A DNA stretch of 64,000 nt from assembly GCF_900089605.1 (NCBI RefSeq), contig NZ_LT594324.1, forward strand, positions 1,674,001 through 1,738,000. The letters run 5' to 3'. Below are positions 2,173 through 17,495 of this stretch, in pieces. This DNA comes from Micromonospora narathiwatensis. GTDB lineage: Bacteria; Actinomycetota; Actinomycetes; Mycobacteriales; Micromonosporaceae. The position numbers were made by a program, and so were the translations under genes. The notes under the pieces were generated by a model, which had not been told where the DNA came from, searched no databases, and was given only the letters and a program-made list of their open reading frames with translations. The first letter of the stretch is position 1; every line of letters begins with the position of its first letter.

Positions 2173-3255
2173 TCAGCCCGAGGTCAGCCTGATCGGTCCG
2201 TCGGCGGGCTCCGCGCGGACCGGTTCCGGGCGGGCCGGTCCGGGCGGGGCGGGTTCGGGAACCCACAGCCCGACCCGGGCGCCGCCGCCCGGCCCGCCGC
2301 CGACGGTCATCCGACCGTCGAGCGTCGCGGCCACCGCACCGACGATGGCCCAGCCGAGACCCGTGCCGGTGGCGGTGGGACGACCGGGCCGCCCGGCGAG
2401 CAGGTCGGGTACGGCCTCCGGCGGGATGCCCTCTCCCGAGTCGATCACCTCCACCGTCCAGCCGGCCGGGTCCCGGCGGCCCACCAGCGCGATCCGGTCC
2501 CCGGGGCCGGTGAACTTCACCGCGTTCTCGATCAGGCAGTCCAACGCGGCCTCCAACCGCTCCGGGTTGACCCGGGTCAGCCCGATCCCCGACCGGCAGG
2601 ACCAGTCCCGGTCGGCGGTCGGCGCCCAGCGCCGGGCGATCCGGGCCAGTTCGAGGTCCAGGTCGACCGGGCGCACCGGATGCTGCTGCTCCAGTTGCAC
2701 GAGGGTGAGCAGCCGGTGCGCGATGCGGGTCGCCTTGTCCAGCTCGTCGAGTACCACCGCGGTGTCCGCCAGGGTCGGCGGATCGTCGTGGGTGGTACGC
2801 AGCAGTTCGGTGTAGCCGCGGGCGATGGTCAGTGGCGTACGCAGCTCGTGCGAGGCGAGCCGGACCAGCAGTTCCTGCCGGTGCGCCCGGTCCCGCTCGG
2901 CCTCGCCGATGCGGCGCATCTCGTGCAGCAGCACGTGCCGGCGGTGCACGTGCCAGGCCATCACCACGAAGATCACCGTCATCAGCGGTTCCTCGGCGGT
3001 CTCCTCCCAGCGGATCTCGCCGACGGCCGCGTGGTGGGCCAGGATCACGCCGGTCGTGGTGGTCACCGCCACCAGCGCGGCCACCATCCCGGACAACGGC
3101 CAGGTGGTGAAGCCGTAGACCAGGGCCAGGCTGATCCAGACCAGGTGGAACGGCACCGTCTCCTGCCCGGGCAGGAACCACATGAGTGCCACGTTGATCG
3201 CGGTGAAGACGATCCACAGGTGGGCCAGCAGCCGGTCAGTCGACGACGTACGCAT
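2173..3255 (-). CDS. Sensor histidine kinase
   Basis: A 360-residue membrane histidine kinase. The first 115 or so residues contain three to four hydrophobic helices with very short loops, so it lacks a large extracytoplasmic sensor domain and probably senses within or near the membrane. The HisKA phospho-acceptor motif is ASHELRTPL (His near residue 138), followed by an N box (ENAVKF), the DSGEGIP G1 box and the GTGLGWAIV G2 box of the HATPase domain. The ATG at 3255 overlaps the end of the response-regulator gene by 20 bp, so the two are co-translated. It lies back-to-back with the copper-oxidase locus, which makes that locus the obvious candidate regulon. The signal is unknown. Confidence 0.9.
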   Translation of the reverse strand: MRTSSTDRLLAHLWIVFTAINVALMWFLPGQETVPFHLVWISLALVYGFTTWPLSGMVAALVAVTTTTGVILAHHAAVGEIRWEETAEEPLMTVIFVVMAWHVHRRHVLLHEMRRIGEAERDRAHRQELLVRLASHELRTPLTIARGYTELLRTTHDDPPTLADTAVVLDELDKATRIAHRLLTLVQLEQQHPVRPVDLDLELARIARRWAPTADRDWSCRSGIGLTRVNPERLEAALDCLIENAVKFTGPGDRIALVGRRDPAGWTVEVIDSGEGIPPEAVPDLLAGRPGRPTATGTGLGWAIVGAVAATLDGRMTVGGGPGGGARVGLWVPEPAPPGPARPEPVRAEPADGPIRLTSG

Positions 3256-3904
3256 AGCCCACGCCGCGTACCGTCTCGATCCGGTCCGGCCGGTCCAGCC
3301 GGCCGCGCAGCCGGCGGACCGACACGTCGACCACGTTGCTTCCCGGGTCGAAGTGCAGGCCCCACACGTCGGCGAGCAGCTCCTCGCGGCTGCACGGACG
3401 GCCGGCCCGGCTCATCAGGTGCTGCAACAGCAGGAACTCGCGCAGCGGCAGGTCCACCCGCACCCCGTCGACGGTGGCCTGGCGCCGATGCAGGTCCAGC
3501 CGCACCGGCCCGACCCGCAGCCACCGGCCCGAGTCCCCGGTCGGCGTCCCGCGCATCCGGGCGCGTACCCGGGCCACCAGCTCGGCGACCGCGAACGGTT
3601 TGCCGAGGAAGTCCGCCGCGCCCGCCTCCAGCACCGCTACCCGGGCGCTGATCTCCGGCACCGCGGACAGCACCAGCACCGGCTGCTCGGGTCGCCGCTG
3701 AAGCAGCCGGTCCAGTACCTGACGGCCGTCCATGCCGGGCAGCATCAGGTCCAGGACCACCAGGTCGAAGTCCCGGCGCAGCGCCGCGTCCAGTCCGGCC
3801 GTGCCGGACGACGCCCGCTCGGTCAGCAGGCCACCGCCCTCCAGTGCCCGGGCGACCAACCGTCCGAGCCGCTCGTCGTCCTCGATCACCAGTACTCGCC
3901 CCAC
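3236..3904 (-). CDS. OmpR/PhoB-family response regulator
   Basis: A 222-residue response regulator. The receiver domain (about residues 1-115) shows the acidic pair EDDE, the phospho-acceptor Asp in VVLDLMLPG and the conserved Lys in LGKPF. The C-terminal half is a winged-helix OmpR-type domain with LPLREFLLLQHL, the SREELLADVWG helix and the closing RTVRGVGYAYV wing. The start is GTG at 3904; reading backwards the gene precedes and overlaps the kinase gene. It is divergently arranged to the 1710-residue exported protein gene, and the 246-bp gap between them holds a pair of 7-bp direct repeats at 11-bp spacing, the geometry usual for this regulator family. Regulation of the copper-oxidase cluster is therefore inferred, not shown. 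Confidence 0.92.
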   Translation of the reverse strand: MGRVLVIEDDERLGRLVARALEGGGLLTERASSGTAGLDAALRRDFDLVVLDLMLPGMDGRQVLDRLLQRRPEQPVLVLSAVPEISARVAVLEAGAADFLGKPFAVAELVARVRARMRGTPTGDSGRWLRVGPVRLDLHRRQATVDGVRVDLPLREFLLLQHLMSRAGRPCSREELLADVWGLHFDPGSNVVDVSVRRLRGRLDRPDRIETVRGVGYAYVVD

Positions 3905-4045: not shown

Positions 4046-4150
4046 CGCTGTCATAAACCGTCGTCGGTGCGGCGGTGCCGCCCATGCTCCTCACACCAGC
4101 CCGGCCGCCTACCACTGTGGCCGTTCGCCGCTGACCGAGGGGGTGAGGGC

Positions 4151-7100
4151 ATGCCGCGCCGTTCCGTCTGGCCGCGCTGGTTCGTGTCCGCCAGTTGCCT
4201 GCTGATCGTCGGGATCGTCGTACCGCCGGGTTCGGCCGCTGCCGAGCCGACCACGGGCGGGATCACCCTCAAGGTGGTCAGCGCCCGGACCGTCGGGGCA
4301 GCCCCGCAGATCCAGCAGGGCGACCCGGTGACCGACTACCGATGGATGATCACGGCGGACGACACGGGCGACCCGCACGACGCCTTGTCGCACTGCCTGC
4401 CGGCCCGGGCCGGAGTGGCCAGCGCGCCGGACTTCGCCGACCACTGCCGCTGGCCGTCCATCCGCAACACCCCGGGCGCGGTGCCGGTGGTCGCGCAGGG
4501 TGACCGGGCCACGCTCGCCAGTGGTACGCCGCTGGACGGCCTGCCGGCCGGCCGCTACCTGATCTCGGTGACCGCGGACGGCTACAAGATCGACGGTGAG
4601 CACTTCACGGTCACCCCGGGCCGGACCACCGCGGTGACCGTCGGCATGCAGCCGTACCCGCTGCCGCTCGGCACGGTCCGGCTGCGGATCTTCGAGGACA
4701 GCGTCCCGGTCGACGGCACCTACGAGGTCGGTGCCGAGCGGGGTCTGGCCGGCTTCACCGCCCACCTCGCCGACGTGATGGGGGAGGTGACGGTCGACTA
4801 CTACGGCAACCCGCTCTGCACCGAGTACGAGCACACCGCGCCGGACGCGAGGCACCCGGCCGGGCAGGTCGTGTTCGACGACGGCAGTCCGGTCATCGCC
4901 GAGGAGTCCACCGGCTGCCGCAGCGACGCGAACGGCGACATCGTCATCCCCAACCTCGGCCCGAACCGGTACGCCGCCTCGGTCGTCGCCCCGAGCGGGC
5001 AGAGCTGGGTGCAGACGACCACGCTGGAGGGTGGCCACGACTGGGACGTCTGGGTGCAGGAGAACGACACCGGCTACGACACGGAGCAGAGCCTCGGCGG
5101 CGAGCCGGTGCCGTACGTGGACTTCGGCTTCGTCTCCCCGAAGGCGCTCACCGGCACCGCCACCGGCGCGATCACCGGCACCGTGGTGCAGGTCTACACG
5201 TACATCGGCGGGCAGGGCGGCGTGACGGTGCCGGAGACCGGGGTGGCCGGCGGGAAGATCGCCGGCCCGGTGTCCCGGCCCTGGGTGGCCCTGTCCGACC
5301 TGGGCGACGGCGACCAGATGATCTACCTGGACCGGGGTGCCGCCGACGGTTCCTTCCGCATCCCGCACGTGCCCGACGGTGACTACCAGCTGACCCTCTG
5401 GGACGGCCCGCAGGAGATGCTGCTCGACTCGTTCAATGTCACGGTCAGCGGCGGGAAGACTGTCGACGTCGGCACCAAGCCCCTCGCGGGCTGGTTCACC
5501 GAGATCACCGGCACGGTCTTCGTGGACACCAACGGCAACGGCCGGCAGGACCCCGGTGAGAAGGGCGTGCCCCGCTTCCCGGTGGTGGTCAAGGAACGCG
5601 ACAACTCCCTGATGGACCAGGGCACCAACAGCGTGGTCACCGACAGCAACGGCCGCTACGCCATCAAGGAGGTGTACCCGTTGAGCAAGTGGCTGGTGCT
5701 GGAGGCGTTCCACACCCGCTACCGCACCACCGGCATCACCTACCAGGCGCCCAACGACCCCACCCCGACCACGCTGCTCGGCGCGGCCGTCGACGTGGAC
5801 GTGCTGCCGATCATCGGGCTGGCCGGTCGGGTGGACTGGGGTGTGCAGCCGTACCGGGGGACGGAGAACGGCGGCATCGCCGGCACCGTCACCTACGACA
5901 CCACCCGCAACGAACTCGACCCGGCGTACGCGGTCACCGAGCCGTACCAGCCGGGCATCCCCGGCCTCGGGGTCCACCTGTACGCGGTGGTCCGCGACGA
6001 GAACGGGGACCCGGTCCGGGACGAGGACGGCGCGCTGAAGAAGGGCCCGGAACTCAACGACGCGTACACCTCGGAGACCTGGCAGCCCGGACGTGGCTGC
6101 ACCGCGCGGATGTTCGACGGGCGCCCGCTGACCGACCAGCTCGCCCTGCCGGACTTCGGCACCGACGCGAACCAGATGTGCGTCGAGGCGCCGATGATGG
6201 GCTTCCAGGCCGCGCCGACCGACAACGACCCGGCCAACTTCGGGCAGACCGTCAACGGCAACTACGCGTTCGCCGACTCCAGGCTGAACCTGATTCCGCC
6301 GGGCGACCCGGCGAACCCCGGCCCCGATCACGACCTGCCGCTGTACGCTCCGTTGCCGGACGGCCAGACCCAGCCGCTGGTGCCCGACGACTACCTGGTG
6401 TCGGTGGAGCTGGGCGAGAACCCGGTCGGCGGCGGGTCGATGTACCTGCCGACCCGGGAGGAGGACGTCAACGTCTTCGACGGCGACGGCTACCTGCCCC
6501 AGGAGAACTTCCCGCCCTCGCCCGACCAGGCGACCGAGCAGCCGGCGCCACCCGACCCGCAGCCCGACCCGGGCGAGCCGCCGTCGCAGGGCAACGGCAT
6601 CAACTCGTCCTGCGCCGGCGCCCTGCACGAGGTGCACGTCACCGACCCCGCCTTCCTCGACGGCGGCGGCAGCCCGTTCGAAGGCCAGCGGCGCCCGCTC
6701 TGCGACACCAAGCTGGTCGAGGTCCGGGCCGGGCAGACCAGCGCGCCCAACTTCAACCTGTTCACCCCGGTGCCGCTGCCCACCCACTTCTGGGGGCTGG
6801 TGATCAATGACCTCGGCCTGAGCCACGACAGGCGCAGCGTCAACTACGGCGAGGCCGAGGGCATCCCGAACCTCCCGGTCGGCCTGTACGACTGGGCCGG
6901 CCGCCTGGTGGACACCGTCGACACCGACTTCAACGGCATGTACGAGGCGATCGAGCCCTCGACCAGCACGTACAACTGTCCGCTGCCGGCCGGGCCCTGC
7001 CCGAACATGTACCGCTTCGTCGGCAACGACCCCGGCCAACCCGGACACCTCAACGGCAACTACAACCCCCGCTACCGCACCATCGGCACCAACTTCCAGG

Positions 7101-9283
7101 CATGGCCCGGCCTCTACACGGTGACCGACACCGCGCCCACCGCGGTCGCCGCGGTCGGCATCTCGCCCGGCTCCGGCCAGCTCGGCGCCGTGCAGTGCGA
7201 CCCGGCCGGGGACGACCCGCAGCTGTTCGCGGTCTCCCGGCCGTTCCTGCGCAGCACCGACACCGACCGCCGGGTCACCATCACCGGCATCGGGTTCGGC
7301 GTCCGCGGTCCGGGCAGCGCGGTCCGGTTCACCTCGGCCGGCACCTCCCCGACGGTGACCGTCAACTCCTGGTCCGACCGGAAGATCGAGGTCACCGTCA
7401 CCGGCGGCTCGGTCGGCCCGGCGGAGGTGAGCGTCACCGCCGCCAACGGCCGGGAGACGGTCAACGGCCTCACCTTCCAGATCCTTGGCGCCACGACCGG
7501 CAGCGGCATCGGCGGTGCGAACAACCCCCGGCTGTTCCAGGTCAAGCCGCCCGCCTTCGCGGTACGCACCGGGGAGACCACCTACTCCAGCGTGCAGGCG
7601 GCGCTGGAGGCGGCGGCCACCATCGGCGGCATCGGGGTCGTGGCGGTCTGGCCGAACACCCCGGGCCCGGACAACCCGGCCGGCGCGTACCTGGAGAACG
7701 TGATCGTGCACTCCTCGGCGCGGCTGCAGGGCGTCGGCCCGGGCGGCCGGTACGCCGACGGCACGGTCGTCGCCGGGTCGATCCTCGACGGCCGGGCGTT
7801 CGGCATCGACAGCCCGGCCGGTACGGCGTGGCTGAACCTGGTCGCGTCCCTCCCGCACGCGGGGCCGGCGGCGGTGCCGGACGGCGCGGTGGTGACCGTG
7901 CTGGCCCGTCCCGGACAGTTCAGCTCGGGCAACGCCGTCACCATCGACGGCTTCCGGATCACCGGCGGCAACCAGTCCGACTTCCCGGGCAACGTCAACC
8001 AGTGGACCGGCGGGGTGAGCACCCCGTACGGCGCGCCGGGCGCGGTGGTGACCCAGGGCGGTGGCATCTACCTGCACGGCGCGGCCCGCTACACCCGGAT
8101 CACCGACAACGTCATCGTCGCCAACAGCGGCTCGTACGGCGGCGCGATCCGGATCGGCACCCCCTACCTGAACACCAGCAACGACCACGTCACCGTCTCC
8201 CGCAACCAGATCCGGGACAACGGTGGCACCAACCTGGCCGGCGGCATCGGCATCTTCGCCGGCAGCAACGCGTACTCGGTGGACCACAACGCCATCTGCG
8301 GCAACTTCTCGGCCGAGTACGGCGGCGGAGTCAGCCACTACGGCCTGTCGTACAACGGCCGGATCGCGAACAACCGGATCTGGCTCAACCAGTCGTACGA
8401 CGAGGGTGGCGGCGTCATGGTCGCCGGTGAGCTGCCGTCGGACCCGACGAAGCTGTCGCCCGGCACGGGCGCGGTGCAGATCGACGCCAACCTGGTGGAG
8501 GCGAACCTGGCCAACGACGACGGCGGCGGTGTCCGGCTGCTCCAGGCCGGCAACGTGCCGATCTCGGTGACCAACAACATGCTGGTCGACAACATCTCCA
8601 CCCACGAGGGCGGCGGGATCGCGCTCGACGACGCGCCGGACGTGCGGTTCGTCAACAACACCGTCGCGGGCAACATCACCACCGCGACCGCGGCCACCAG
8701 CAACGGCCGCGCCGCCCCCGCCGGCCTGTCCACCACCGCCAACAGCACTCAGTTGCAGGCCACCCTGCCGGCCGACTCGCCCAACTTCAGCAAGCCGAAG
8801 CTGTTCAACAACGTGTTCTGGGACAACCGGGCCGGCGAGTGGACCGGCGAGTACGTCAAGGGCATCGGCGCCGGCGGCGCCCCGGCCGGGGACACCGTTC
8901 GGCACTGGGACATGGGCTCGGCCGACGGGGTGGGGCCGCTGACCCCGACCAACTCGGTGCTCCAGGACACCACCGGCACCGCGCTCGCCGGCACCAACCG
9001 GGTCGGCGTCGACCCCCGGTTCCGCAGACCGTTCCCGGTGTCGGTGCAGATCCTCACCTCGCGTACCTTCCCGTCGTTCCGGCAGGCGGTGATCGTGCTC
9101 CAGGAGGTCCCGCTGACCGAGATGGGTGACTGGCACCTCGCCGACGCCACCTCGTCGGCGCGCGCACTGGGAGTGCTCTCCCGCACCTACGGCACGTTCA
9201 CCGTCACCGCCCCGACGGTCGACATCGACGGCCAGGCCCGCAGCACCACGCGTCCCGACGCCGGCGCCGACGAACTGTCCTGA
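4151..9283 (+). CDS. Giant exported protein: SdrD-B-like, IPT/TIG and parallel beta-helix domains
   Basis: A 1710-residue exported protein. The ATG at 4151 follows a good ribosome site (GAGGGGGTGAGG) and opens a classic signal peptide ending near AAAEP; the ATG at 4067 in the same frame would bury it. Domains in rough order: prealbumin/CnaB-like repeats in the first 440 residues; an SdrD-B-type domain at about 450-510 with a calcium-loop DTNGNGRQDPGE; further B-type repeats with a Pro-rich linker (about 790-815); an IPT/TIG Ig-like domain at about 1000-1110; and a right-handed beta-helix with repeated GGG-x-x and NN-x-I rungs at about 1140-1520. There is no LPXTG motif or transmembrane anchor, so it is probably secreted or held by partners. 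It is followed by three cupredoxin-type oxidase paralogues, suggesting a scaffold or binding protein for them. No known function is recognised. Confidence 0.8.
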   Translation: MPRRSVWPRWFVSASCLLIVGIVVPPGSAAAEPTTGGITLKVVSARTVGAAPQIQQGDPVTDYRWMITADDTGDPHDALSHCLPARAGVASAPDFADHCRWPSIRNTPGAVPVVAQGDRATLASGTPLDGLPAGRYLISVTADGYKIDGEHFTVTPGRTTAVTVGMQPYPLPLGTVRLRIFEDSVPVDGTYEVGAERGLAGFTAHLADVMGEVTVDYYGNPLCTEYEHTAPDARHPAGQVVFDDGSPVIAEESTGCRSDANGDIVIPNLGPNRYAASVVAPSGQSWVQTTTLEGGHDWDVWVQENDTGYDTEQSLGGEPVPYVDFGFVSPKALTGTATGAITGTVVQVYTYIGGQGGVTVPETGVAGGKIAGPVSRPWVALSDLGDGDQMIYLDRGAADGSFRIPHVPDGDYQLTLWDGPQEMLLDSFNVTVSGGKTVDVGTKPLAGWFTEITGTVFVDTNGNGRQDPGEKGVPRFPVVVKERDNSLMDQGTNSVVTDSNGRYAIKEVYPLSKWLVLEAFHTRYRTTGITYQAPNDPTPTTLLGAAVDVDVLPIIGLAGRVDWGVQPYRGTENGGIAGTVTYDTTRNELDPAYAVTEPYQPGIPGLGVHLYAVVRDENGDPVRDEDGALKKGPELNDAYTSETWQPGRGCTARMFDGRPLTDQLALPDFGTDANQMCVEAPMMGFQAAPTDNDPANFGQTVNGNYAFADSRLNLIPPGDPANPGPDHDLPLYAPLPDGQTQPLVPDDYLVSVELGENPVGGGSMYLPTREEDVNVFDGDGYLPQENFPPSPDQATEQPAPPDPQPDPGEPPSQGNGINSSCAGALHEVHVTDPAFLDGGGSPFEGQRRPLCDTKLVEVRAGQTSAPNFNLFTPVPLPTHFWGLVINDLGLSHDRRSVNYGEAEGIPNLPVGLYDWAGRLVDTVDTDFNGMYEAIEPSTSTYNCPLPAGPCPNMYRFVGNDPGQPGHLNGNYNPRYRTIGTNFQAWPGLYTVTDTAPTAVAAVGISPGSGQLGAVQCDPAGDDPQLFAVSRPFLRSTDTDRRVTITGIGFGVRGPGSAVRFTSAGTSPTVTVNSWSDRKIEVTVTGGSVGPAEVSVTAANGRETVNGLTFQILGATTGSGIGGANNPRLFQVKPPAFAVRTGETTYSSVQAALEAAATIGGIGVVAVWPNTPGPDNPAGAYLENVIVHSSARLQGVGPGGRYADGTVVAGSILDGRAFGIDSPAGTAWLNLVASLPHAGPAAVPDGAVVTVLARPGQFSSGNAVTIDGFRITGGNQSDFPGNVNQWTGGVSTPYGAPGAVVTQGGGIYLHGAARYTRITDNVIVANSGSYGGAIRIGTPYLNTSNDHVTVSRNQIRDNGGTNLAGGIGIFAGSNAYSVDHNAICGNFSAEYGGGVSHYGLSYNGRIANNRIWLNQSYDEGGGVMVAGELPSDPTKLSPGTGAVQIDANLVEANLANDDGGGVRLLQAGNVPISVTNNMLVDNISTHEGGGIALDDAPDVRFVNNTVAGNITTATAATSNGRAAPAGLSTTANSTQLQATLPADSPNFSKPKLFNNVFWDNRAGEWTGEYVKGIGAGGAPAGDTVRHWDMGSADGVGPLTPTNSVLQDTTGTALAGTNRVGVDPRFRRPFPVSVQILTSRTFPSFRQAVIVLQEVPLTEMGDWHLADATSSARALGVLSRTYGTFTVTAPTVDIDGQARSTTRPDAGADELS

Positions 9284-9353: not shown

Positions 9354-10613
9354 GTGACCGATCCCGTACGGCAGCGGAGCATCAGCCGGCGTGCCCTGCT
9401 GGCCGGCGTCACCGGTCTGGGCACCTGGGCGGTCCTGCCGGAGAGCGGCTCGGACGCCCAGCCGCGCCGCCCGGCCGCGGTGCTGCCGCGCGCGGTGCCC
9501 AACCCGACCGCGACCCTGCACCTGGCGGCGACCGACGGCTGGGTCTCCATGCCGCAGGGCTCCCCGGCGATCAGCCCGTTCTGGCCCGACCCGCTCGCCC
9601 CGCCCAACGCCGACCTGTACGTCTTCGGCTTCCGCGACGTCACCGGCCTGTCGGCCACCGAGGTCACCGCCCAGCGCGGCAGGGCGCAGATCACCGCCCC
9701 GCTGCTCGGCTTCGACCAGGAGACCGACATCAAGATCAAGCTGACCAATCTCGGCCTGGCCCAGCGCCCCGACCTGGTCGACGGGCACACCGTGCACTGG
9801 CACGGCTTCCGCAACGCCATCCCGCTCTTCGACGGCGTGCCGGAGCTGTCCATCTCGGTGCCGATCGGCCGCGAGTTCACCTACTTCTACCGGCCGCACG
9901 ACGCCGGCACCTACATGTACCACTGCCACTTCGAGGACGTCGAGCACGTGCAGATGGGCATGACCGGCATCGTCTACGTACGGCCCACCCAGAACGCCGG
10001 CACCGCCGACGTCCCGCCCGGGAGGTACGTCTACAACGACGGCGACGGCAGCACCCGGTACGACCGGGAGTTCGCGCTGATGCTCACCGAGGTGTGGGCC
10101 GAGGCGCACTACCGCGACGCGCACATCCAGACCACCGACTGGACCGACTACAAGCCGTCCTTCTTCGCCTTCAACGGTCGCTGCTACCCGGACACCCTCG
10201 CCCCCAACGGCGACCCGCTCAGCCCCGCCGCCGGGCGGCTGCGCTACCAGCCGGTCTCCTCGCTGATCACGGCGAACGCGGGGGAGCGGGTGCTGCTGCG
10301 GCTGGCCAACCTTGGCTACTGGAACCACACCCTCACCGTGGACGGCGTCGACCTGCTGGTGGTCGGCAAGGACGCCGCGCTGCTGCGCGGCCGCGACGGC
10401 AGCGCCGAGTACCAGGTGACCAGCACCGTCGAGATCGGGCCGGGGGAGAGCCGCGACGTCATCTTCACCGTGCCCGAGGCCGGCACGTACCTGCTCTACG
10501 ACCGCGACCTGATGTCCCTGGCCAACGCCGGTGGCGGACGGGGCGGGCAGTTGACCGAGATCCGGATCTCGCCGCCCGGCACGCTCCCGGCGCAGACCCG
10601 GGCGAACGCCTGA
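9354..10613 (+). CDS. Two-domain multicopper oxidase-like protein A (carries type 1 copper site)
   Basis: A 419-residue exported cupredoxin protein. The GTG at 9354 follows GAGGAGGAG, and the N terminus has a twin-arginine motif (SRRALLAG), so it is probably exported folded by Tat. Domain 1 holds HWHG (His148, His150) and YHCHFEDVEHVQMGM (His190, Cys191, His192, His198, Met201/203). These are two trinuclear-site HxH pairs plus the Cys/His/Met of a type 1 copper, an arrangement known from two-domain oxidases with T1 in domain 1. Domain 2 keeps the fold signatures (around NHTLTVDG and GTYLLYDRD) but has lost both HxH pairs. A full trinuclear centre therefore cannot be built from this chain alone; the missing His pairs are present in the next gene. 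Substrate unknown; metal, bilirubin or phenol oxidation are all possible. Confidence 0.85.
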   Translation: MTDPVRQRSISRRALLAGVTGLGTWAVLPESGSDAQPRRPAAVLPRAVPNPTATLHLAATDGWVSMPQGSPAISPFWPDPLAPPNADLYVFGFRDVTGLSATEVTAQRGRAQITAPLLGFDQETDIKIKLTNLGLAQRPDLVDGHTVHWHGFRNAIPLFDGVPELSISVPIGREFTYFYRPHDAGTYMYHCHFEDVEHVQMGMTGIVYVRPTQNAGTADVPPGRYVYNDGDGSTRYDREFALMLTEVWAEAHYRDAHIQTTDWTDYKPSFFAFNGRCYPDTLAPNGDPLSPAAGRLRYQPVSSLITANAGERVLLRLANLGYWNHTLTVDGVDLLVVGKDAALLRGRDGSAEYQVTSTVEIGPGESRDVIFTVPEAGTYLLYDRDLMSLANAGGGRGGQLTEIRISPPGTLPAQTRANA

Positions 10614-10614
10614 G

Positions 10615-11928
10615 ATGGGGGTACCGATGCTTCGTCTCGACCACGGCCGGTGGAAGCGGCTGAGCGCGGTGCCGCTCGTCGCGGCCATCGTCGCCGTGCT
10701 CCTCGTCCCCGGGCCGGAGCAGGTCGCCGCCAGCCCGCCGGCCGGCCTGGAGTGCCTCACGTCCCGCGACAACGCCTTCGACCTCACCGCGACCGGCGGA
10801 TACGCGGGCATGCCGGACGGCAACACCATCTACATGTGGAGCTACGCGGCCAGCGGCGGCGAGTTTCAACTGCCCGGCCCGACGCTCTGCGTCACTTCCG
10901 GGGTGAGGGTCACCGTCGTGCTGCACAACACCCTGCCGGAACCCACCTCGATCACCTTCCCCGGGCAGGCGCAGGTGCTCGCCGACGGGCAGCCGGCCCA
11001 GCCGGAGACCGACGCCGGCGGCACCCTCACCTCGCTCACCACCACCGCCGCGGCCGGCAACGGCTCGGTCACCTACACCTTCACCGCCGGCCCGCCCGGC
11101 ACCTACCTCTACCAGTCCGGCACCGACGTGCAGAAGCAGGTGCAGATGGGCCTCTACGGGGCGCTGGTGGTGCGCCCGGTCGGCCACCCGGACCGGGAGA
11201 ACGACCGGGCCGACTCGGCGTTCGACACCGACCACGAGTACCTCTACCTGCTCGGCGAGATCGACCCCGACCTGCACCTGGCCGTCGAGCGCAAGCGGGC
11301 CTACGACTTCACGAAGTACAAGGCCAGGTACTTCACCATCAACGGGCGCAGCATGCCGGACACCCTCGCCCCCAACCACGCCGACTGGCTGCCCGACCAG
11401 CCGTACGGGGCGCTGATCCACATCCAGCCGTACGACCCGGTGCACAACCCGAAGCCGGCGCTGATCCGTTACCTCAACGCCGGCTCCGTCAGCTACCCGT
11501 TCCACCCGCACGGCAGCGACGAGCAGCTGATCGCCCGGGACGGCCGGCCGGCGCAGGGCCCCGGCGGGCAGGACCTCTCGTTCTCCAACTTCCTCATCGA
11601 CGTCGCGCCGGGGCAGACCGTGGACACCCTGATGGTCTGGCAGGACGCCGAGCACTGGAACCCGAGCACCAACCCGATCCCGGTGCCGCTGCCGTCGTTG
11701 CAGGACCAGATCGTCGGCCCCGGTCCGGAGACCTGGTTCGCGGAGAACCCGTACCTCGGCGGTGAGCAGGGCGAGCTGCCGCCCGGCGTGGTGCAGAACA
11801 ACCAGTGCGGCGAGTACTACCACGTCGCGCACAGCCACGCGTTGGAACAGGCCACCAACTACGGGGCGAGCTTCGGCGGAATGATGACGCTGATCCGCAT
11901 CGACCCGCCCGCCGGATGTCCGGCGTGA
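10615..11928 (+). CDS. Two-domain multicopper oxidase-like protein B (carries complementary His pairs)
   Basis: A 437-residue exported cupredoxin protein starting 1 bp after the previous stop (ATG 10615; ATG 10627 is an alternative). The N terminus has a hydrophobic signal segment. Domain 1 is degenerate: the positions that hold HxH and HCH in protein A read FPG and YQSGTD, although the QVQMGL tail survives. Domain 2 has FHPHGSD (His297, His299) and YYHVAHSHALEQ (His403, His406, His408) followed by a GGM. The HSH replaces the usual HCH, so this domain offers trinuclear ligands but no type 1 Cys. It is thus the mirror image of protein A, and the pair together would supply four HxH motifs and one type 1 site. 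A heteromeric enzyme is inferred. Cys47, Cys92 and Cys398 could form disulfides. Confidence 0.85.
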   Translation: MGVPMLRLDHGRWKRLSAVPLVAAIVAVLLVPGPEQVAASPPAGLECLTSRDNAFDLTATGGYAGMPDGNTIYMWSYAASGGEFQLPGPTLCVTSGVRVTVVLHNTLPEPTSITFPGQAQVLADGQPAQPETDAGGTLTSLTTTAAAGNGSVTYTFTAGPPGTYLYQSGTDVQKQVQMGLYGALVVRPVGHPDRENDRADSAFDTDHEYLYLLGEIDPDLHLAVERKRAYDFTKYKARYFTINGRSMPDTLAPNHADWLPDQPYGALIHIQPYDPVHNPKPALIRYLNAGSVSYPFHPHGSDEQLIARDGRPAQGPGGQDLSFSNFLIDVAPGQTVDTLMVWQDAEHWNPSTNPIPVPLPSLQDQIVGPGPETWFAENPYLGGEQGELPPGVVQNNQCGEYYHVAHSHALEQATNYGASFGGMMTLIRIDPPAGCPA

Positions 11929-11948: not shown

Positions 11949-14900
11949 ATGACACCGATCCGTACGCCTCGGCTGGTCGCCGGGCTCGCGGCGGCGCTGC
12001 TGGCGCTCGGCCCGGCCCCAGCGGTTGCCGCACCACGGGACGCCGCCGGATCCGTCCGGGGATCGACCGCGCTCGCGGTCGCCGCCGGATCCGCCGGGCT
12101 CGCGGCGGCACCCACCGGCCGGGCGCCGGCGACCCTCGCCGGGCCGCCCGGACCGCCGCAGGGCACGTTGCCGCAGACCGGCTGCCAGCTCGCCGCCGGC
12201 ACCGCGACCTGTGAGCTGTGGGCCAAGCCCGGTTCGGTGGTGCTGCCCGGCGCCGCCGCCCCGGTGCCGATCTGGGGTTTCGCCTCGACCGACGCCGCCC
12301 CGGCAACCCTGCCCGGCCCGGTGCTCGTGGTCGACCAGGGCGACCGGGTGACCATCACCGTGCACAACGGACTCACCGACAACCTGTCGCTGGCGTTCCC
12401 GGCGGTCACCGGGCTCGCCCCGGACCGCACCGGCGCCACCCCCGGCGGCACCCGCGCCTACACCTTCACCGCGGCCCGCCCCGGCACCTACCTCTACGAG
12501 GCCGGCCATACCGGGTACGGGGCCCGACAGGTCGCCATGGGCCTGGTCGGCGCGCTGGTGGTCCGCGCCCCGGCGGTCGGCGGGCGGCCCAGCGCGTACG
12601 GGGACACCGCCTCGATCTACGACGACGAGGCGGTGCTGGTGCTCACCGAGGTCGACCCGGCCTTCAACGCCGCCCCGCGCACCTACGACCTGCGCGCGTA
12701 CGCCCCGAAGTACCGCCTGATCAACGGCAAGGCGTTTCCGGAGACCGCCGTGGTCGCCACCGACGTCGGCCGCACGGTGCTGCTGCGCTATGTCGCCGCC
12801 GGGCTGCAACCGCACCCGATGACCCTGCTCGGGCTGGACCAGGCGGTGGTCGGTCAGGACGCCCGGCCGGCCGCGTACCCCGAGGCGGCGGTGACCCTGC
12901 CGTTGCAACCCGGACAGGCGGTCGACGCCGTGGTCGGCGTGCCGGCGGGGCCGGACGGTCGGCGCTTCGCGCTGCTCGAGTCCGGCGGGCAGCTCAACAA
13001 CGCCGGCCAGCGCTACGGCAGCACGGTCAACGGGGTCAGCCCGCAGCAGGCCTTCGGCGGCATGCTGACCTTCCTGGACACCAACCCGCCGCCGGCCAGC
13101 GGTGACCGTGTCGGCCCGACCTCGGCGAACGTCCGGGTCGCACCGAACCCGGCCAGCGTGCTGAACACGATCACCGTCACCGCCGACTTCAGCGACGCCC
13201 GCAACGGCAACTCGGTGGTGGACCGGGCCGAGGCGGTCGTCGACGACCTGCGGGTCGCCGAGGGCACCGGCATCCCGTTCGCCGCCGCCGGCTTCGGCGC
13301 CGGGCCGACCGTGACCGGGGCCACCGCGGTCCTCCCCGGCGAGCTGCTCGGCACCCTCACCCAGGGCAGGCACACCGTCTGGGTACGCGGCCACGACGCG
13401 GCCGGCAACTGGGGCGTGGTCGGCAGCGCCACGCTGAACCTCGCGGTCACCGGCGCGGTCACCACCGGTGTGACCCTCAGCCCGAACCCGACCGGCGGCA
13501 CCGGCGGCATCGCGATCTCCGCCACCGGCGACGACCGTGGCCTGGGCGGCACGGTCACCGACGCGGAGTACTTCGTGGACGCCACCGGGCCCAGCGGCAC
13601 CGGCACCCCGCTCACCCTGGCCAACCCGGGCACGGCGGTCAGCGCCGAGTCCGGCAGCATCCCGGCGTTGGTCGCCGCCGCCCTGGCCGAGGGCCGGCAC
13701 ACGGTGCTGACGCACACCAGGGACTCGTTCGGCTTCTGGGGTCCGTACGCGAGCGTGGACCTGGTGGTGGACCGGACCGTGCCGACCCTGCTCTCGGCGG
13801 CGGTGGACCCCGCCGTCACCGACGGCCGTACCGGCTCGACGTCCGATCCGACCTGTCTGCGGATCAACGCGGCGTTCACCGACCCGCCCGGGGGCGGGGT
13901 GCACTCGACGATCGCCGGCGCGGAGGGCTTCCTCGACGTCGGCGGGGCGGACGGCACCGGGTTCACCTTCCTGGCCCTGGACGGATCGTTCAACAGCGCC
14001 ACCGAGAACACCTACGGGCTGCTGCCGCTGAGCGAGCTGACCGGGATCGCCGACGGCACCCACCGGGTACTGGTGCACGCCCGCGACTCGGCGGGGAACT
14101 GGGGTCCGCTGGCCGCGGTCACCTTCGTCCTGGACCGGACCGGGCCGGTGGTCACCGCGGTCACCGCGACCCCGAACCCGACCGCCCGGGCGGCGGTGCT
14201 CGCCCTGACCGCCACCGCCACCGACGTCTCGGCGGTCACCGACGCCGAGTGGTACGAGGGCACCGACCCCGGCGTCGGCCATGGCCACCCGATGACGGTC
14301 AGCGGCAGCGCCGTCTCCGGCACGATCGCCCTCAACGGGTTCAGCAGGGGCAACCACACGCTGTGGGTTCGGGCCCGGGACGCGCTGGGCCACTGGGGTA
14401 CGGCCGGCGCGGTGACGGTCAACGTCGACCCGCCCGACGCGATCTTCTCCGACGGGTTCAGCAACGGCACGAGCGCCTGGTCGCAGGTGTTCGGCACGGT
14501 GTCGGTCAGCTCCGGCCAACTGGTCGCCGGCACGGTCGGCTACGTCCTGGACGACACCCCGGCCGCCGAGCGCACGATGCACACCAAGGCCGACGTCACC
14601 CTCGGCACGTTCAACCCGCAGACCGCCGTGGTCACCGTCCACCAGCTGCGCAACGCCTCCGGCAACCCCCTCGCCGTGGTGCAGTATCAGCGCGGCAACG
14701 GCGTCAACCAGTTCCGGCTCGGGCTGCTGCGTCCGGCGGGGTGGGCGTACACCCCGTGGGCGAACGCGAACGGCGGGACGATCCGGCTGGACTGGACGTC
14801 GGCCACCGCGGGCTCCGCCACCCTCAAGGTCGGCACGGTCACGGTCGGCACCCTGACCGGCGACACCAGCGGCTACACGGTGGAGTCGGCGACGCTGGGC

Positions 14901-14981
14901 ATGGTCGCCCGTACCGCCACCACCACCAGCGGGTCGCTGAGCTTCGACAACTACGCCTCCACCCGCTACACCGCACCCTGA
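11949..14981 (+). CDS. Cupredoxin-like protein C without copper ligands, with Ig-like repeats and a LamG-like tail
   Basis: A 1010-residue exported protein; ATG 11949 follows GGGGAGGG and opens a signal peptide ending at about AVAAP. Residues of roughly 60-375 align by eye with the two cupredoxin domains of proteins A and B (VTITVHNGL, GTYLYEAGHTG, MGLVGALVV, VLLRYVAAGLQPHP, FGGML), but no HxH or HCH motif remains, so it should not bind oxidase copper. Residues 375-830 contain four Ig-like repeats, each ending in a variant of HTVWVRGHDAAGNWG. The last 170 residues form a jelly-roll/LamG-like domain (DGFSNGT-x-x-W start). The likely role is a structural third subunit or a surface/glycan-binding arm of the oxidase. 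This is inference from paralogy and operon position. Confidence 0.75.
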   Translation: MTPIRTPRLVAGLAAALLALGPAPAVAAPRDAAGSVRGSTALAVAAGSAGLAAAPTGRAPATLAGPPGPPQGTLPQTGCQLAAGTATCELWAKPGSVVLPGAAAPVPIWGFASTDAAPATLPGPVLVVDQGDRVTITVHNGLTDNLSLAFPAVTGLAPDRTGATPGGTRAYTFTAARPGTYLYEAGHTGYGARQVAMGLVGALVVRAPAVGGRPSAYGDTASIYDDEAVLVLTEVDPAFNAAPRTYDLRAYAPKYRLINGKAFPETAVVATDVGRTVLLRYVAAGLQPHPMTLLGLDQAVVGQDARPAAYPEAAVTLPLQPGQAVDAVVGVPAGPDGRRFALLESGGQLNNAGQRYGSTVNGVSPQQAFGGMLTFLDTNPPPASGDRVGPTSANVRVAPNPASVLNTITVTADFSDARNGNSVVDRAEAVVDDLRVAEGTGIPFAAAGFGAGPTVTGATAVLPGELLGTLTQGRHTVWVRGHDAAGNWGVVGSATLNLAVTGAVTTGVTLSPNPTGGTGGIAISATGDDRGLGGTVTDAEYFVDATGPSGTGTPLTLANPGTAVSAESGSIPALVAAALAEGRHTVLTHTRDSFGFWGPYASVDLVVDRTVPTLLSAAVDPAVTDGRTGSTSDPTCLRINAAFTDPPGGGVHSTIAGAEGFLDVGGADGTGFTFLALDGSFNSATENTYGLLPLSELTGIADGTHRVLVHARDSAGNWGPLAAVTFVLDRTGPVVTAVTATPNPTARAAVLALTATATDVSAVTDAEWYEGTDPGVGHGHPMTVSGSAVSGTIALNGFSRGNHTLWVRARDALGHWGTAGAVTVNVDPPDAIFSDGFSNGTSAWSQVFGTVSVSSGQLVAGTVGYVLDDTPAAERTMHTKADVTLGTFNPQTAVVTVHQLRNASGNPLAVVQYQRGNGVNQFRLGLLRPAGWAYTPWANANGGTIRLDWTSATAGSATLKVGTVTVGTLTGDTSGYTVESATLGMVARTATTTSGSLSFDNYASTRYTAP

Positions 14982-15039: not shown

Positions 15040-15507
15040 ATGGTCGCGATCCCGTTCCGCATCCCGCGTCCCCGCCTCGGCCGGGTGGTGCTCCCGCTGC
15101 TCGTGCTGGCGCTGGTCACGGTGTCGATCGTCCGCTTCGGCGGTCACGCCGAAGCCCGGCAGGGCTACGCCGTACCGCACGACGGGCAACTGGAGGCCGC
15201 CCTGGGCATCCGCTTCACCCAGGCCGCCGTGGTCGGTGACGGCGGCCTGGTCGAACTGCGCTACGTGGTGCTGGACACCCAGAAGGCGTCCGCCTTCCAG
15301 AACGACACGAAGCACCCGCCCCGGCTGCGCAACGAGCGCTCGGGCAAGCTGGCCTGGCGGGCGGCGCTGATGAAGCAGGGCCACGAGCTGCGCCCCGGCC
15401 AGAGCTACTACCTGCTCTACCTGAACAACGACAGCGCCATCAAGCGCGGCGACAAGATCGAGATCACCTCGGGCCAGCGCCGCCTGGCCCACGTACCGGT
15501 GCGGTGA
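15040..15507 (+). CDS. Small membrane-anchored protein of unknown function in the copper locus
   Basis: A 155-residue protein with an N-terminal membrane anchor or signal (hydrophobic residues about 14-30, VVLPLLVLALVTVSIV) and a soluble exported domain. The domain has a His near the mature start (VPHDGQ), a VELRYVVLDTQ strand, KHPPRLRNE, and a conserved-looking YYLLYLNNDSAIKRGDKIEI hairpin. I do not recognise the family. The ATG at 15040 follows CCCCGAGGAG. Its stop is overlapped by the GTG of the CopC-CopD gene, so the two are probably co-translated. Position suggests a role in copper delivery or assembly of the oxidase, for instance an exported chaperone; no metal motif is diagnostic. Confidence 0.65.
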   Translation: MVAIPFRIPRPRLGRVVLPLLVLALVTVSIVRFGGHAEARQGYAVPHDGQLEAALGIRFTQAAVVGDGGLVELRYVVLDTQKASAFQNDTKHPPRLRNERSGKLAWRAALMKQGHELRPGQSYYLLYLNNDSAIKRGDKIEITSGQRRLAHVPVR

Positions 15508-17495
15508 GCGGTATGCGCCGACCGGGCCGTCTCCTCGCCGCCCTCACCGTGGCGGGCCTGACCGTGCTGCTCGGACCCACCCCGGCGCAGGCGCACGCGT
15601 ACCTGTTGCGCAGCGCGCCGAGCGACGGCGCGGTGCTCGATCGGGCGCCCGAGACGCTCGTTCTCGCCTTCACCGAGCACGTGGAGCTGTCCGCCGCCCG
15701 GATCACCCTGGTCGACGGCGACGGCCGGCACTGGGCGGTCAACGGGCTGGCGCTGCGCGGCGAGGACGGCGGACCAGCCGCCCCGGACGCCGGCAGCGAG
15801 GAGCCCGTCACCCTGGTCGCCGGCCTGCCGGCGCTTCCGCCGAACACCTACCACGTGTCCTGGCGGACCCTCTCCTCCGACGACCTGCACACCACCAGCG
15901 GCACCCTGGTCTTCGGAGTGGGCCGGCCGGTCACCGCCGCGGGCCCCGCCGGCCCCGTCGGTCCCGGCCCCCGGGAGACCGCCTTCCGGGCGCTCGGCCT
16001 CGCCGGCCTCGCCGTCCTGCTCGGCGGCGCCGCGCTGGCCCTGCTGACCGGGACCGGCGTCCGCCGCCCCGACCCCACGACCGCCGCGCTCCGCCGGCGG
16101 CTGCACACCGTTGCCGGGTACGCGGGCGCGCTCGCCCTGGTCGCCACGCCGCTGCAACTGGCCGTACAGCTCTCCGGGGCGGGCGGCGTGCGGTCGGGGC
16201 TCCTGGCCGACCAGCTCACCAGCGGTCGTTGGCTGCTCCGTGAGGTCGGCACGGCGCTGGTGTTCGTGGTCGTGCTCCGGGCCGCGTACCGGCTCCGGCC
16301 CGAGGTGACCGGATCGGCCGGTCCGTCGGGCGACGCCGGCCGGTCGGGAGCCGGCCCGGTGGCCGTCGCCGTCGGCGTGGCGGGTGCGCTCGCCGCCGCC
16401 GCGGGCACCGCCCTGCTCGGCCATCCGATGGGCGGCCCGCTGCGTACCGCACTGGTCGGCGGCGTCCACGTGCTGGCGGCCGGCGGCTGGGCCGGCGCGG
16501 TCGTGGCCGCCGTACTCGCCCTCCTGCCCTCGGCCCGGCAGGCAGCCGACCGGGCCGCCCAGCTGAGTGCACTGCTGCGCGCCTTCGCCCCGCTCGCCGC
16601 CGGCTGCCTCACCGTGCTGGTGCTCACCGGGCTGCTGCTCACCGGTCCGCAGGTGGCGACCGTCGACGCCCTGCTCGGCTCCCCGTACGGACTGCTGCTA
16701 CTCGCCAAGGTCGCCACGGTCGGGGCGGCGGGACTGCTGGGTCTGCGGACCGCCCGACGGCTGCGGCACGGCGACCTGCCCCGGCGGGGCCTGCGCGCCG
16801 AGGCGGGGCTGCTCGTGGCCGTCCTCGGACTGGCCGGGGCGCTGGCCGCCGCCGGACCCGGTCGGGGCCCCGGGTTTCCGGTGGCCGACGCCGGGCGGGC
16901 CGTGCCCCAGGTCAGCGGGCAGGTCGCCGACCTCGTCGACACGGTGGCCGTACGCCCCAACCGGCCGGGCCGCAACATCGTCTCCGTCGGCGTCGAGGAC
17001 ACCCGCCGCCCGGCCCCCGGGCCGGTCACCGGAGTGTCGCTGCTGCTCACCGGCCCGAACGGGGAGCGGGCGGTGCACCCGGTCACCCGGACCGGCGACG
17101 GCTGGGTGGTGGCGGTCGACGACATCCGTGCCCCGGGCCGGTGGCAGGTCGGGGTGACCGTGCTCCGCGACGGCCTGCCCCCGGTGACCGACACCCACCC
17201 CTGGCTGGTGCCGGCCGGCGACACGACCGTCACCCCCGTACGCGTCTCCGTGGCCCCGCTGCGACCGGTGCTGGACCGGACCGCGGTGCTGGGCACACTG
17301 GTCGCGGTGGCCGTGGCGGCCGTCGCCGGAACGCAGTGGTGGCGCCGGCGCCGGACCGGCGTCGGGCCGACCGCGGAGCTGCCCGGCCCGGGCGCTGCCG
17401 AGCCGGACGGCTACTGGGGGCGAGCGGCGGAGCTGTCCCGGACCACGAGTTCGGTGGCCAGCTCGACCCGGGGCGCCTCGATCTCCTCGCCCTGA
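15504..17495 (+). CDS. CopC-CopD fusion, copper binding/uptake protein
   Basis: A 663-residue fusion. A signal peptide (ends about AQAHA) is followed by a CopC domain of about 100 residues: mature N-terminal His in AHAYLLRSAPSDG, FTEHVEL, and DDLHTTSG near its end, which are the usual copper(II) ligands. Then come about eight membrane helices of the CopD domain with scattered membrane His (LHTVAGYAG, LGHPMGG, GGVHVLAAGGW), and an extracytoplasmic C-terminal domain with a last helix. CopC/CopD proteins bind and import copper, which would supply the adjacent oxidases. The GTG at 15504 overlaps the previous stop; ATG 15513 is an alternative. The last 85 bp overlap the 3' end of the convergent LacI gene. 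Confidence 0.88.
   Translation: MSGMRRPGRLLAALTVAGLTVLLGPTPAQAHAYLLRSAPSDGAVLDRAPETLVLAFTEHVELSAARITLVDGDGRHWAVNGLALRGEDGGPAAPDAGSEEPVTLVAGLPALPPNTYHVSWRTLSSDDLHTTSGTLVFGVGRPVTAAGPAGPVGPGPRETAFRALGLAGLAVLLGGAALALLTGTGVRRPDPTTAALRRRLHTVAGYAGALALVATPLQLAVQLSGAGGVRSGLLADQLTSGRWLLREVGTALVFVVVLRAAYRLRPEVTGSAGPSGDAGRSGAGPVAVAVGVAGALAAAAGTALLGHPMGGPLRTALVGGVHVLAAGGWAGAVVAAVLALLPSARQAADRAAQLSALLRAFAPLAAGCLTVLVLTGLLLTGPQVATVDALLGSPYGLLLLAKVATVGAAGLLGLRTARRLRHGDLPRRGLRAEAGLLVAVLGLAGALAAAGPGRGPGFPVADAGRAVPQVSGQVADLVDTVAVRPNRPGRNIVSVGVEDTRRPAPGPVTGVSLLLTGPNGERAVHPVTRTGDGWVVAVDDIRAPGRWQVGVTVLRDGLPPVTDTHPWLVPAGDTTVTPVRVSVAPLRPVLDRTAVLGTLVAVAVAAVAGTQWWRRRRTGVGPTAELPGPGAAEPDGYWGRAAELSRTTSSVASSTRGASISSP

Follow-up and report, generated by a model that had tools for sequence, protein, structure and literature searches.

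A conserved pair of adjacent genes with complementary multicopper oxidase ligands points to an oxidase divided between different chains

INTRODUCTION

Two-domain multicopper oxidases are described as trimers that are classed by the position of the type 1 (T1) copper, which in type C lies in the N-terminal domain, and each of their trinuclear centers draws ligands from two protomers (PMC13151041). For bacterial six-domain oxidases, one trinuclear center is reported between domains 2 and 3, with the T1 copper in domain 2 (Vasin et al., PMC3600357). Since two-protomer trinuclear sites are known, a site common to two chains is ordinary; a site common to two different chains is not. Here, we analyze three adjacent genes, A, B and C, in a 64,000-nucleotide stretch of the soil bacterium Micromonospora narathiwatensis (NZ_LT594324.1, 1,674,001-1,738,000; “the window,” whose positions serve as coordinates below). 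An initial annotation had read A and B as one multicopper oxidase split over two polypeptides.

RESULTS

Complementary ligand sets in A and B

In the window, A and B lie on the same strand, one base apart and in different reading frames (Table 1). Domain 1 of A carries HTVHWH, HCH, H198 and M203, that is, a T1 set and half of the ligands of a trinuclear center. Domain 2 of A is blank and has no HxH motif because the only other histidines of A are at 56, 182, 252, 257 and 325. B has the opposite arrangement: its domain 1 is blank, and its domain 2 holds the other trinuclear ligands in HPH (297/299) and HSH (406/408), the latter preceded by H403. None of the four cysteines of B (47, 92, 398 and 435) lies within an HCH. 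Motif search and coordinates agree at every checked point with the initial annotation, which had assigned HWH (148/150), HCH (190-192) and the T1 residues His198 and Met to domain 1 of A, had placed HPH and HSH motifs free of Cys in domain 2 of B, and had seen no HxH in the two remaining domains. H145 of A, which it left unnamed, is likely the second T1 histidine. The T1 site thus lies in the N-terminal domain of A (H145, C191, H198 and M203), and neither B nor C has one there.

Motifs missing from one domain might sit elsewhere in the chain; none was found in A, in B or in the cupredoxin part of C in the window. The annotated range (9354..11928) was right for A and B but stopped short of gene C, a third paralogue that contributes two more cupredoxin domains, free of HxH. 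If the three chains assemble, they would bring together six cupredoxin domains with one ligand set.

For A, Pfam matches extend over both halves, as does a match to both domains of PDB entry 2zwn. The best PDB matches of domain 1 of A in a profile search are 2zwn (E 2.7e-21) and 3g5w (E 5.6e-21). Both have HCH in their domain 1 and share the HCH-x5-H-x4-M spacing with A; we take them to be type C two-domain oxidases, which fits the position of HCH. For B, Pfam covers domain 1 only, and domain 2 is recognized through a weak match to 2zwn (8.1 bits). The HSH of B aligns with HDH of 3g5w at -1.1 bits, which is not significant alone, and the B profile ranks copper nitrite reductases (E 4.6e-10) alongside 2zwn (E 1.7e-9).

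Conservation of the partition

Loci were gathered from GTDB contigs, whole genomes and plasmid records, with open reading frame (ORF) starts left uncurated. A and B occur at 41 loci, 37 of them non-identical: L109, L110, L111 and L114 were dropped as identical in B to others, and L043 and L044 were treated as one with contigs of genomes G014 and G035 and counted once each. Unrelated or unclear oxidases (L087 and L117-L119) were dropped from the tables. L079, in which the B gene is broken into two ORFs, was left out of the B table and counted for adjacency, and L043 was left out of the C table because of a contig end.

The 37 non-identical loci come from Actinomycetota and Burkholderiales, and at every one of them A directly precedes B on the same strand as a separate ORF; at four of these (L078, L079, L084 and L106), the two share a frame with a stop between them. 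All eight ligand positions of A are kept in 36 of the 37 rows: H148, H150 and H192 are present in every row and H190 in 36. The four ligand positions of A domain 2 are never His (37 rows). The B alignment has 36 rows, two of them (L078 and L108) cut by contig ends inside domain 2, and H297, H299, H406 and H408 are present in all 34 rows in which domain 2 is complete. In B domain 1, none of the 36 rows has His or Cys at any of the seven His/Cys positions; four rows have Met at the T1-Met position. H403 is missing in 4 of the 18 rows of a smaller alignment (A2), in which H406 and H408 are invariant. In Burkholderiales, the first HxH of B is HMH or HEH, and the alignment leaves the choice undecided. 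Homologues of A or B with complete HxH sets, which the initial annotation had named as contrary evidence, were not found in this family, and no chain has ligands in both domains as in a homotrimer: the domain-2 set is present in 0/37 A rows and the domain-1 set in 0/36 B rows.

A match to the C profile follows B at 33 of the 37 loci. Of the other four, L045, L078 and L108 end earlier, and in L102, the ORF that comes next gave a match to the B profile only. In 32 rows, His and Cys are absent from the domain-1 positions of C and from its first domain-2 pair; for the second domain-2 pair the alignment is not confident, and the cupredoxin part is still without HxH.

As a separate observation, two of the four cysteines of B (92 and 398) do not vary among 18 rows and the other two (47 and 435) hardly vary, which suggests disulfides.

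Co-occurrence and distribution

Because most loci were found through B, the independent test of co-occurrence lies in searches of the class (394 genomes) and of 61 relatives. In the class search, in which four candidates were scored per genome, the A and B profiles, searched independently, recovered the identical 8 of 394 genomes. Among the relatives, the strong loci of A and those of B coincide, with 10 loci in 8 genomes. This last comparison concerns strong matches only: at E 0.001, B matches in 26/61 genomes and A in 29/61, and we take the weaker matches to be other oxidases. Of the adjacent co-occurrence proposed with the initial annotation as a check on its reading, adjacency holds at 37/37 loci and co-occurrence in the independent class searches.

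The triad is rare, with B in 8/394 class and 10/250 family genomes. In a phylum sample, 9/396 genomes were above threshold, namely the window genome, two strong B matches and six weak ones, and the three weak ones that we inspected are single oxidases, each of which itself contains three or four HxH motifs. B and A also match eight large plasmid records of Paraburkholderia and Cupriavidus metallidurans, of which one per genus was read (L105 and L102, respectively); in an annotated Paraburkholderia record with the triad (AP028202.1), all three genes are labeled hypothetical protein. One genome (G052) has three divergent copies of the A-B-C cluster (L080, L081 and L082). Viral contigs, scanned with two peptide patterns taken from A, yielded no relative.

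Phylogeny and selection

A maximum-likelihood tree with midpoint rooting was built from 61 two-domain units. In it, a single branch sets off all A units from the rest, and the same holds for B and for C (support 100/99, 95/82 and 100/97, respectively). B and C are sisters (100/99), the A+B+C group is supported at 89/88, and the longest branches of the three belong to C. Since every one of the three clades contains a sequence from Burkholderiales, A, B and C seem to have diverged from one another before the actinobacterial and burkholderial copies parted.

All parts tested, blank domains included, are under purifying selection, with a ratio of nonsynonymous to synonymous substitution rates (dN/dS) of 0.12-0.35 in five Micromonospora comparisons (four for C). 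For the cupredoxin part of C, the ratio is 0.16-0.28 (four comparisons). On these values, pseudogene decay was rejected. The row counts given above show that the partition of ligands between A and B is no chance pattern; it is old and conserved.

Related split pairs and a fused chain

A similar partition occurs in other genes. Two plasmids of Indioceanicola profundi carry a two-gene pair in the reverse order, B'-A', in which B' has a blank domain followed by HSPHIH and HCH, and A' has HTIHWH and HCH-x5-H-x4-M followed by a blank domain. In one actinobacterial genome of the phylum sample (1/396), two copies of a 782-residue single chain have four cupredoxin domains, of which only domains 2 and 3 hold ligands, the complete T1 set being in domain 3. 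We know of no described class with this four-domain layout, for which the literature was not searched. Six-domain bacterial oxidases likewise have ligand domains 2 and 3, but their T1 copper is reported in domain 2 (PMC3600357). In both the pair and the single chain, the order of domains is blank, HxH plus HCH, T1/HxH/HCH, blank, which matches the halves of A and B. They differ from A and B in that the order is B-A, no C was seen, and an HCH motif brings a Cys into the B-like domain 2. An Arthrobacter plasmid has a protein of the 782-residue type spread over two overlapping frames. The pair and the fused chain suggest that such halves belong together.

Relatives of the halves in Arthrobacter and Paenarthrobacter lie within ~2.2 kb of an NRAMP Mn/Fe transporter gene. 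On plasmid pTC1 of Paenarthrobacter aurescens TC1, a B-like half lies near mntH with no A-like half alongside; its partner may be elsewhere.

Export signals

Export was called from pattern and hydropathy only. A has a twin-arginine-like motif at 35/37 loci, the two without it being burkholderial. The same loose pattern occurs on B at 7/37 loci and on C at 5/33, and these chains otherwise have hydrophobic, Sec-like starts. With A of the twin-arginine type and B mostly Sec-like in Actinomycetota, the two chains would meet outside the membrane. In Indioceanicola, B' has a twin-arginine motif and A' has no hydrophobic stretch from its annotated or called start, as expected if A' leaves the cell folded with B', suggesting that A' may be a hitchhiker on the export of B'.

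Gene neighborhood

The genes around A, B and C are listed in Table 1. Their conservation was surveyed at 33 loci, many of which are cut before they reach neighboring genes, including the upstream kinase. The large protein BH has a match at 33/33 loci. In Paraburkholderia, the third gene has C-profile and BH matches in one frame, and in Cupriavidus, the ORF after B has B-profile and BH matches in one frame, linking BH to the oxidase. (A fusion of BH to A in L115, suggested by a 1989-residue frame, was rejected: the BH matches fall in other frames.) D has a homologue at 28/33 loci and no Pfam match even at E 10; a 162-residue gene at the same place in Paraburkholderia resembles it in an alignment judged by eye. 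A CopC-CopD match, at least partial, was found at 22/33 loci, on the BH side in two of them (L082 and L083). A histidine kinase homologue is near the cluster at 10/33 loci, and the response regulator homologue adjoins the kinase in other loci too.

Table 1. Positions of the window genes and motifs and of related genes on other sequences
Feature	Sequence	Position	Strand	Evidence or content
Sensor histidine kinase gene	Window	2173..3255	-	HisKA + HATPase_c
Response regulator gene, receiver and DNA-binding output domain	Window	3236..3904	-	PF00072 + PF00486
BH, large protein, start codon unsure	Window	4067..9283	+	Pfam: CarboxypepD_reg/SdrD_B/TIG/beta-helix
A, 419 amino acids (aa), two cupredoxin domains, twin-arginine motif near start	Window	9354..10613	+	Pfam, motifs
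A HTVHWH (H145, H148, H150), T1 His and type 2/type 3 His by homology	Window	9786..9803	+	Aligns with HTIHWH of PDB 2zwn/3g5w
A HCHx5Hx4M (H190-C191-H192, H198, M203), type 3 His and T1 Cys/His/Met by homology	Window	9921..9962	+	Aligned to HCH...H...M of 2zwn/3g5w
B, 437 aa, two cupredoxin domains, hydrophobic Sec-like N terminus	Window	10615..11928	+	Pfam, motifs
B HPH (H297, H299)	Window	11503..11511	+	Aligned to HSH of PDB 2zwn, weak second-domain match, 8.1 bits
B HVAHSH (H403, H406, H408)	Window	11821..11838	+	Motif search, alignment of 18 rows
C, 1010 aa, two cupredoxin domains without copper ligands, then immunoglobulin-like repeats	Window	11949..14981	+	Pfam, alignment
D, 155 aa, hydrophobic N terminus, family unassigned by Pfam	Window	15040..15507	+	Homologue in 28/33 loci
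CopC-CopD fusion (CopCD), copper binding/transport	Window	15504..17495	+	PF04234 + PF05425
Paraburkholderia third gene, 2723 aa	L105	8508-16679	-	C-profile and BH matches
Cupriavidus ORF after B	L102	11740-19044	+	B-profile and BH matches
Indioceanicola profundi B'-A' pair	L120	7705-9978
Indioceanicola profundi B'-A' pair	L121	7955-10194
P. aurescens TC1 plasmid pTC1, B-like half	L124	6365-7945
782-aa chain	L125	355-2703	-	Ligands only in domains 2 and 3
782-aa chain	L126	358-2706	-	Ligands only in domains 2 and 3

DISCUSSION

We propose, with a probability of roughly 0.8, that A and B are different chains of one extracytoplasmic oxidase whose copper cluster would form only where domain 1 of A meets domain 2 of B (A1:B2), likely within an asymmetric A-B-C trimer; C is probably part of the complex besides A and B. 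Domain 1 of A would supply the T1 copper and four trinuclear histidines (H148, H150, H190 and H192), and domain 2 of B would supply the other four (H297, H299, H406 and H408). The ancestor of such a trimer would be a type C two-domain oxidase that formed homotrimers. Of the ring contacts A1:B2, B1:C2 and C1:A2, the first would keep its copper, and the other two would have lost their ligands on both sides and be structural. A complete A1:B2 interface with the other interfaces blank is what an asymmetric one-site trimer predicts. C, together with BH, which in Burkholderiales is on the same chain as the third gene, may anchor the enzyme at the cell surface, and CopCD may supply copper outside the membrane. 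We infer the physical complex, its stoichiometry, its copper loading and its oxidase activity from sequence, and likewise the type of substrate, which would be either a phenol or a metal ion, for example Mn(II), Cu(I) or Fe(II). A more specific form of the proposal, an obligate A:B:C heterotrimer in which three genes encode two half-sites and a structural third and which is the unfused counterpart of MnxG and ceruloplasmin, with one twin-arginine translocation (Tat) chain and two Sec chains, has about even odds in our view.

Several observations weigh against this proposal. (i) In L047, a metagenome assembly, Leu replaces H190 of A, the sole exception among the 37 A rows. (ii) HxH motifs outside the ligand columns occur in five A rows (L078, L079, L083, L084 and L115) and three B rows (L083, L102 and L105), which we take as chance. 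(iii) B domain 2 aligns only weakly with known oxidases (8.1 and -1.1 bits). (iv) AlphaFold models of A and B folded singly, from 13-row alignments, have a mean predicted local distance difference test score (pLDDT) of 34 and 39, respectively, and we therefore claim nothing structural. (v) A meeting outside the membrane of a Tat-type A with a Sec-like B is possible and is not the simplest route. (vi) C is missing from the Indioceanicola pair and the 782-residue chain and may thus be dispensable. (vii) The halves of that pair and chain are not firmly grouped with A and B (fork 58/6) and are thus possibly an independent case that backs the principle more than the A/B/C complex.

The triad might also be read as the unfused counterpart of six-domain MnxG that oxidizes Mn(II), which is compatible with a composite A/B oxidase and which we hold as a tentative, somewhat doubtful reading. 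It fits the single trinuclear center between two domain pairs described for bacterial six-domain oxidases (PMC3600357), the control of Pseudomonas putida mnxG by MnxR/MnxS1/MnxS2 (PMC8218464), which has a possible counterpart in the two-component system beside BH, and the NRAMP gene near the Arthrobacter and Paenarthrobacter relatives. However, we liken the triad to MnxG by description only, and the T1 copper of MnxG is reported in its domain 2, not in the first domain as in A (Vasin et al., PMC3600357). In addition, the NRAMP neighbor belongs to the other subfamily, and CopCD points equally to copper. Thus, the MnxG analogy and the NRAMP genes suggest Mn(II) as substrate, and the CopCD neighbor suggests Cu(I), neither of them strongly.

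A sub-case of the proposal keeps the A:B site and places C outside the ring, as an A:B dimer, another A/B ring, or a complex in which C is an anchor only. The Indioceanicola pair and the 782-residue chain show the same partition with no C seen (L125 and L126 being only ~4 kb each), and C has the longest branches of the three. We nevertheless consider this arrangement unlikely: a C-profile match follows B at all but four loci, three of which end first; the cupredoxin part of C is under purifying selection; and the blank interfaces fit an A-B-C ring.

It is very improbable that A and B are independent copper proteins without a trinuclear center, with A carrying electrons as a blue (T1) protein and B binding copper through its histidines. 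A alone does have the complete T1 set, and CopCD is next door. Yet the eight trinuclear histidines of A and B are kept though they have no T1 role, the loss pattern is exactly complementary, and similar halves are fused elsewhere. When the same genome was searched with Cu-oxidase families for another partner of A, the results were a 404-residue oxidase, which by eye has four motifs of its own, and one longer multicopper-oxidase-like ORF. These partner searches, in which PF00394 was not included, are not exhaustive, as A's own domain escaped the PF07732 search.

Copper nitrite reductases are trimers with the T1 copper in domain 1, and NirK holds one type 2 copper with two domain-1 histidines and one domain-2 histidine of the next chain; they are among the PDB matches of A and B, top-ranked for the B profile, and H325 in domain 2 of A is invariant in 18 rows, but a nitrite-reductase-like homotrimer of A with B as a paralogue of other role is scarcely credible, as the second ligand pair of A domain 2 is Tyr/Lys and Arg/Pro in 37/37 rows, so that this domain, which lacks HxH positions, offers at most one His, HxH plus HCH in domain 1 is the oxidase pattern, and the NCBIfam NirK model scored 29.6 bits, where its cut-off is 296.3.

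A scheme discussed for ceruloplasmin and MnxG derives both from a six-cupredoxin ancestor that had three of each kind of copper site and later lost most of them (PMC3600357). The A/B/C triad would be three diverged two-domain units that have lost copper sites while the chains are still separate, indicating that asymmetry can arise without fusion. The order of events, with divergence before or after fusion, thereby becomes testable. If the composite site is true, it would also be a natural switch, an oxidase that is active only where two chains meet.

How does the triad compare with described oxidases? Type C two-domain oxidases resemble A in having two cupredoxin domains, T1 in domain 1 and HCHx5Hx4M, and they resemble the proposed A:B enzyme in taking trinuclear ligands from two chains. 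They are, however, homotrimers in which each chain is complete, whereas here there are three different adjacent genes with ligands on domain 1 of A and domain 2 of B only. MnxG, Fox1 and ceruloplasmin consist of three two-domain units with a single trinuclear center at one interface (PMC3600357). These are single chains, whereas A, B and C are three polypeptides in separate reading frames; moreover, the T1 domains of MnxG and ceruloplasmin are reported as even-numbered, the second of a pair, whereas T1 here is in the first domain of A. MnxEFG is a multicopper oxidase that needs other subunits, described as the only characterized one to require accessory proteins for overexpression; there, only mnxG encodes the oxidase, and MnxE and MnxF are proteins of ~12 kDa said to have no known homologues, whereas here the oxidase ligands themselves are divided (PMC5622069). 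Heterodimeric fungal laccases (POXA3) have two different subunits, as proposed here, but the large one is the laccase and the other a small glycosylated protein, unlike A and B (PMC3129051). We found no described oxidase with copper ligands divided between non-identical chains in the open-access literature, as the initial annotation had supposed. Its obligate heteromeric A/B oxidase is supported by a complementary partition conserved across 37 loci, but a two-chain site alone is not new: what would be new, set beside these known systems, is a trinuclear site divided between non-identical chains.

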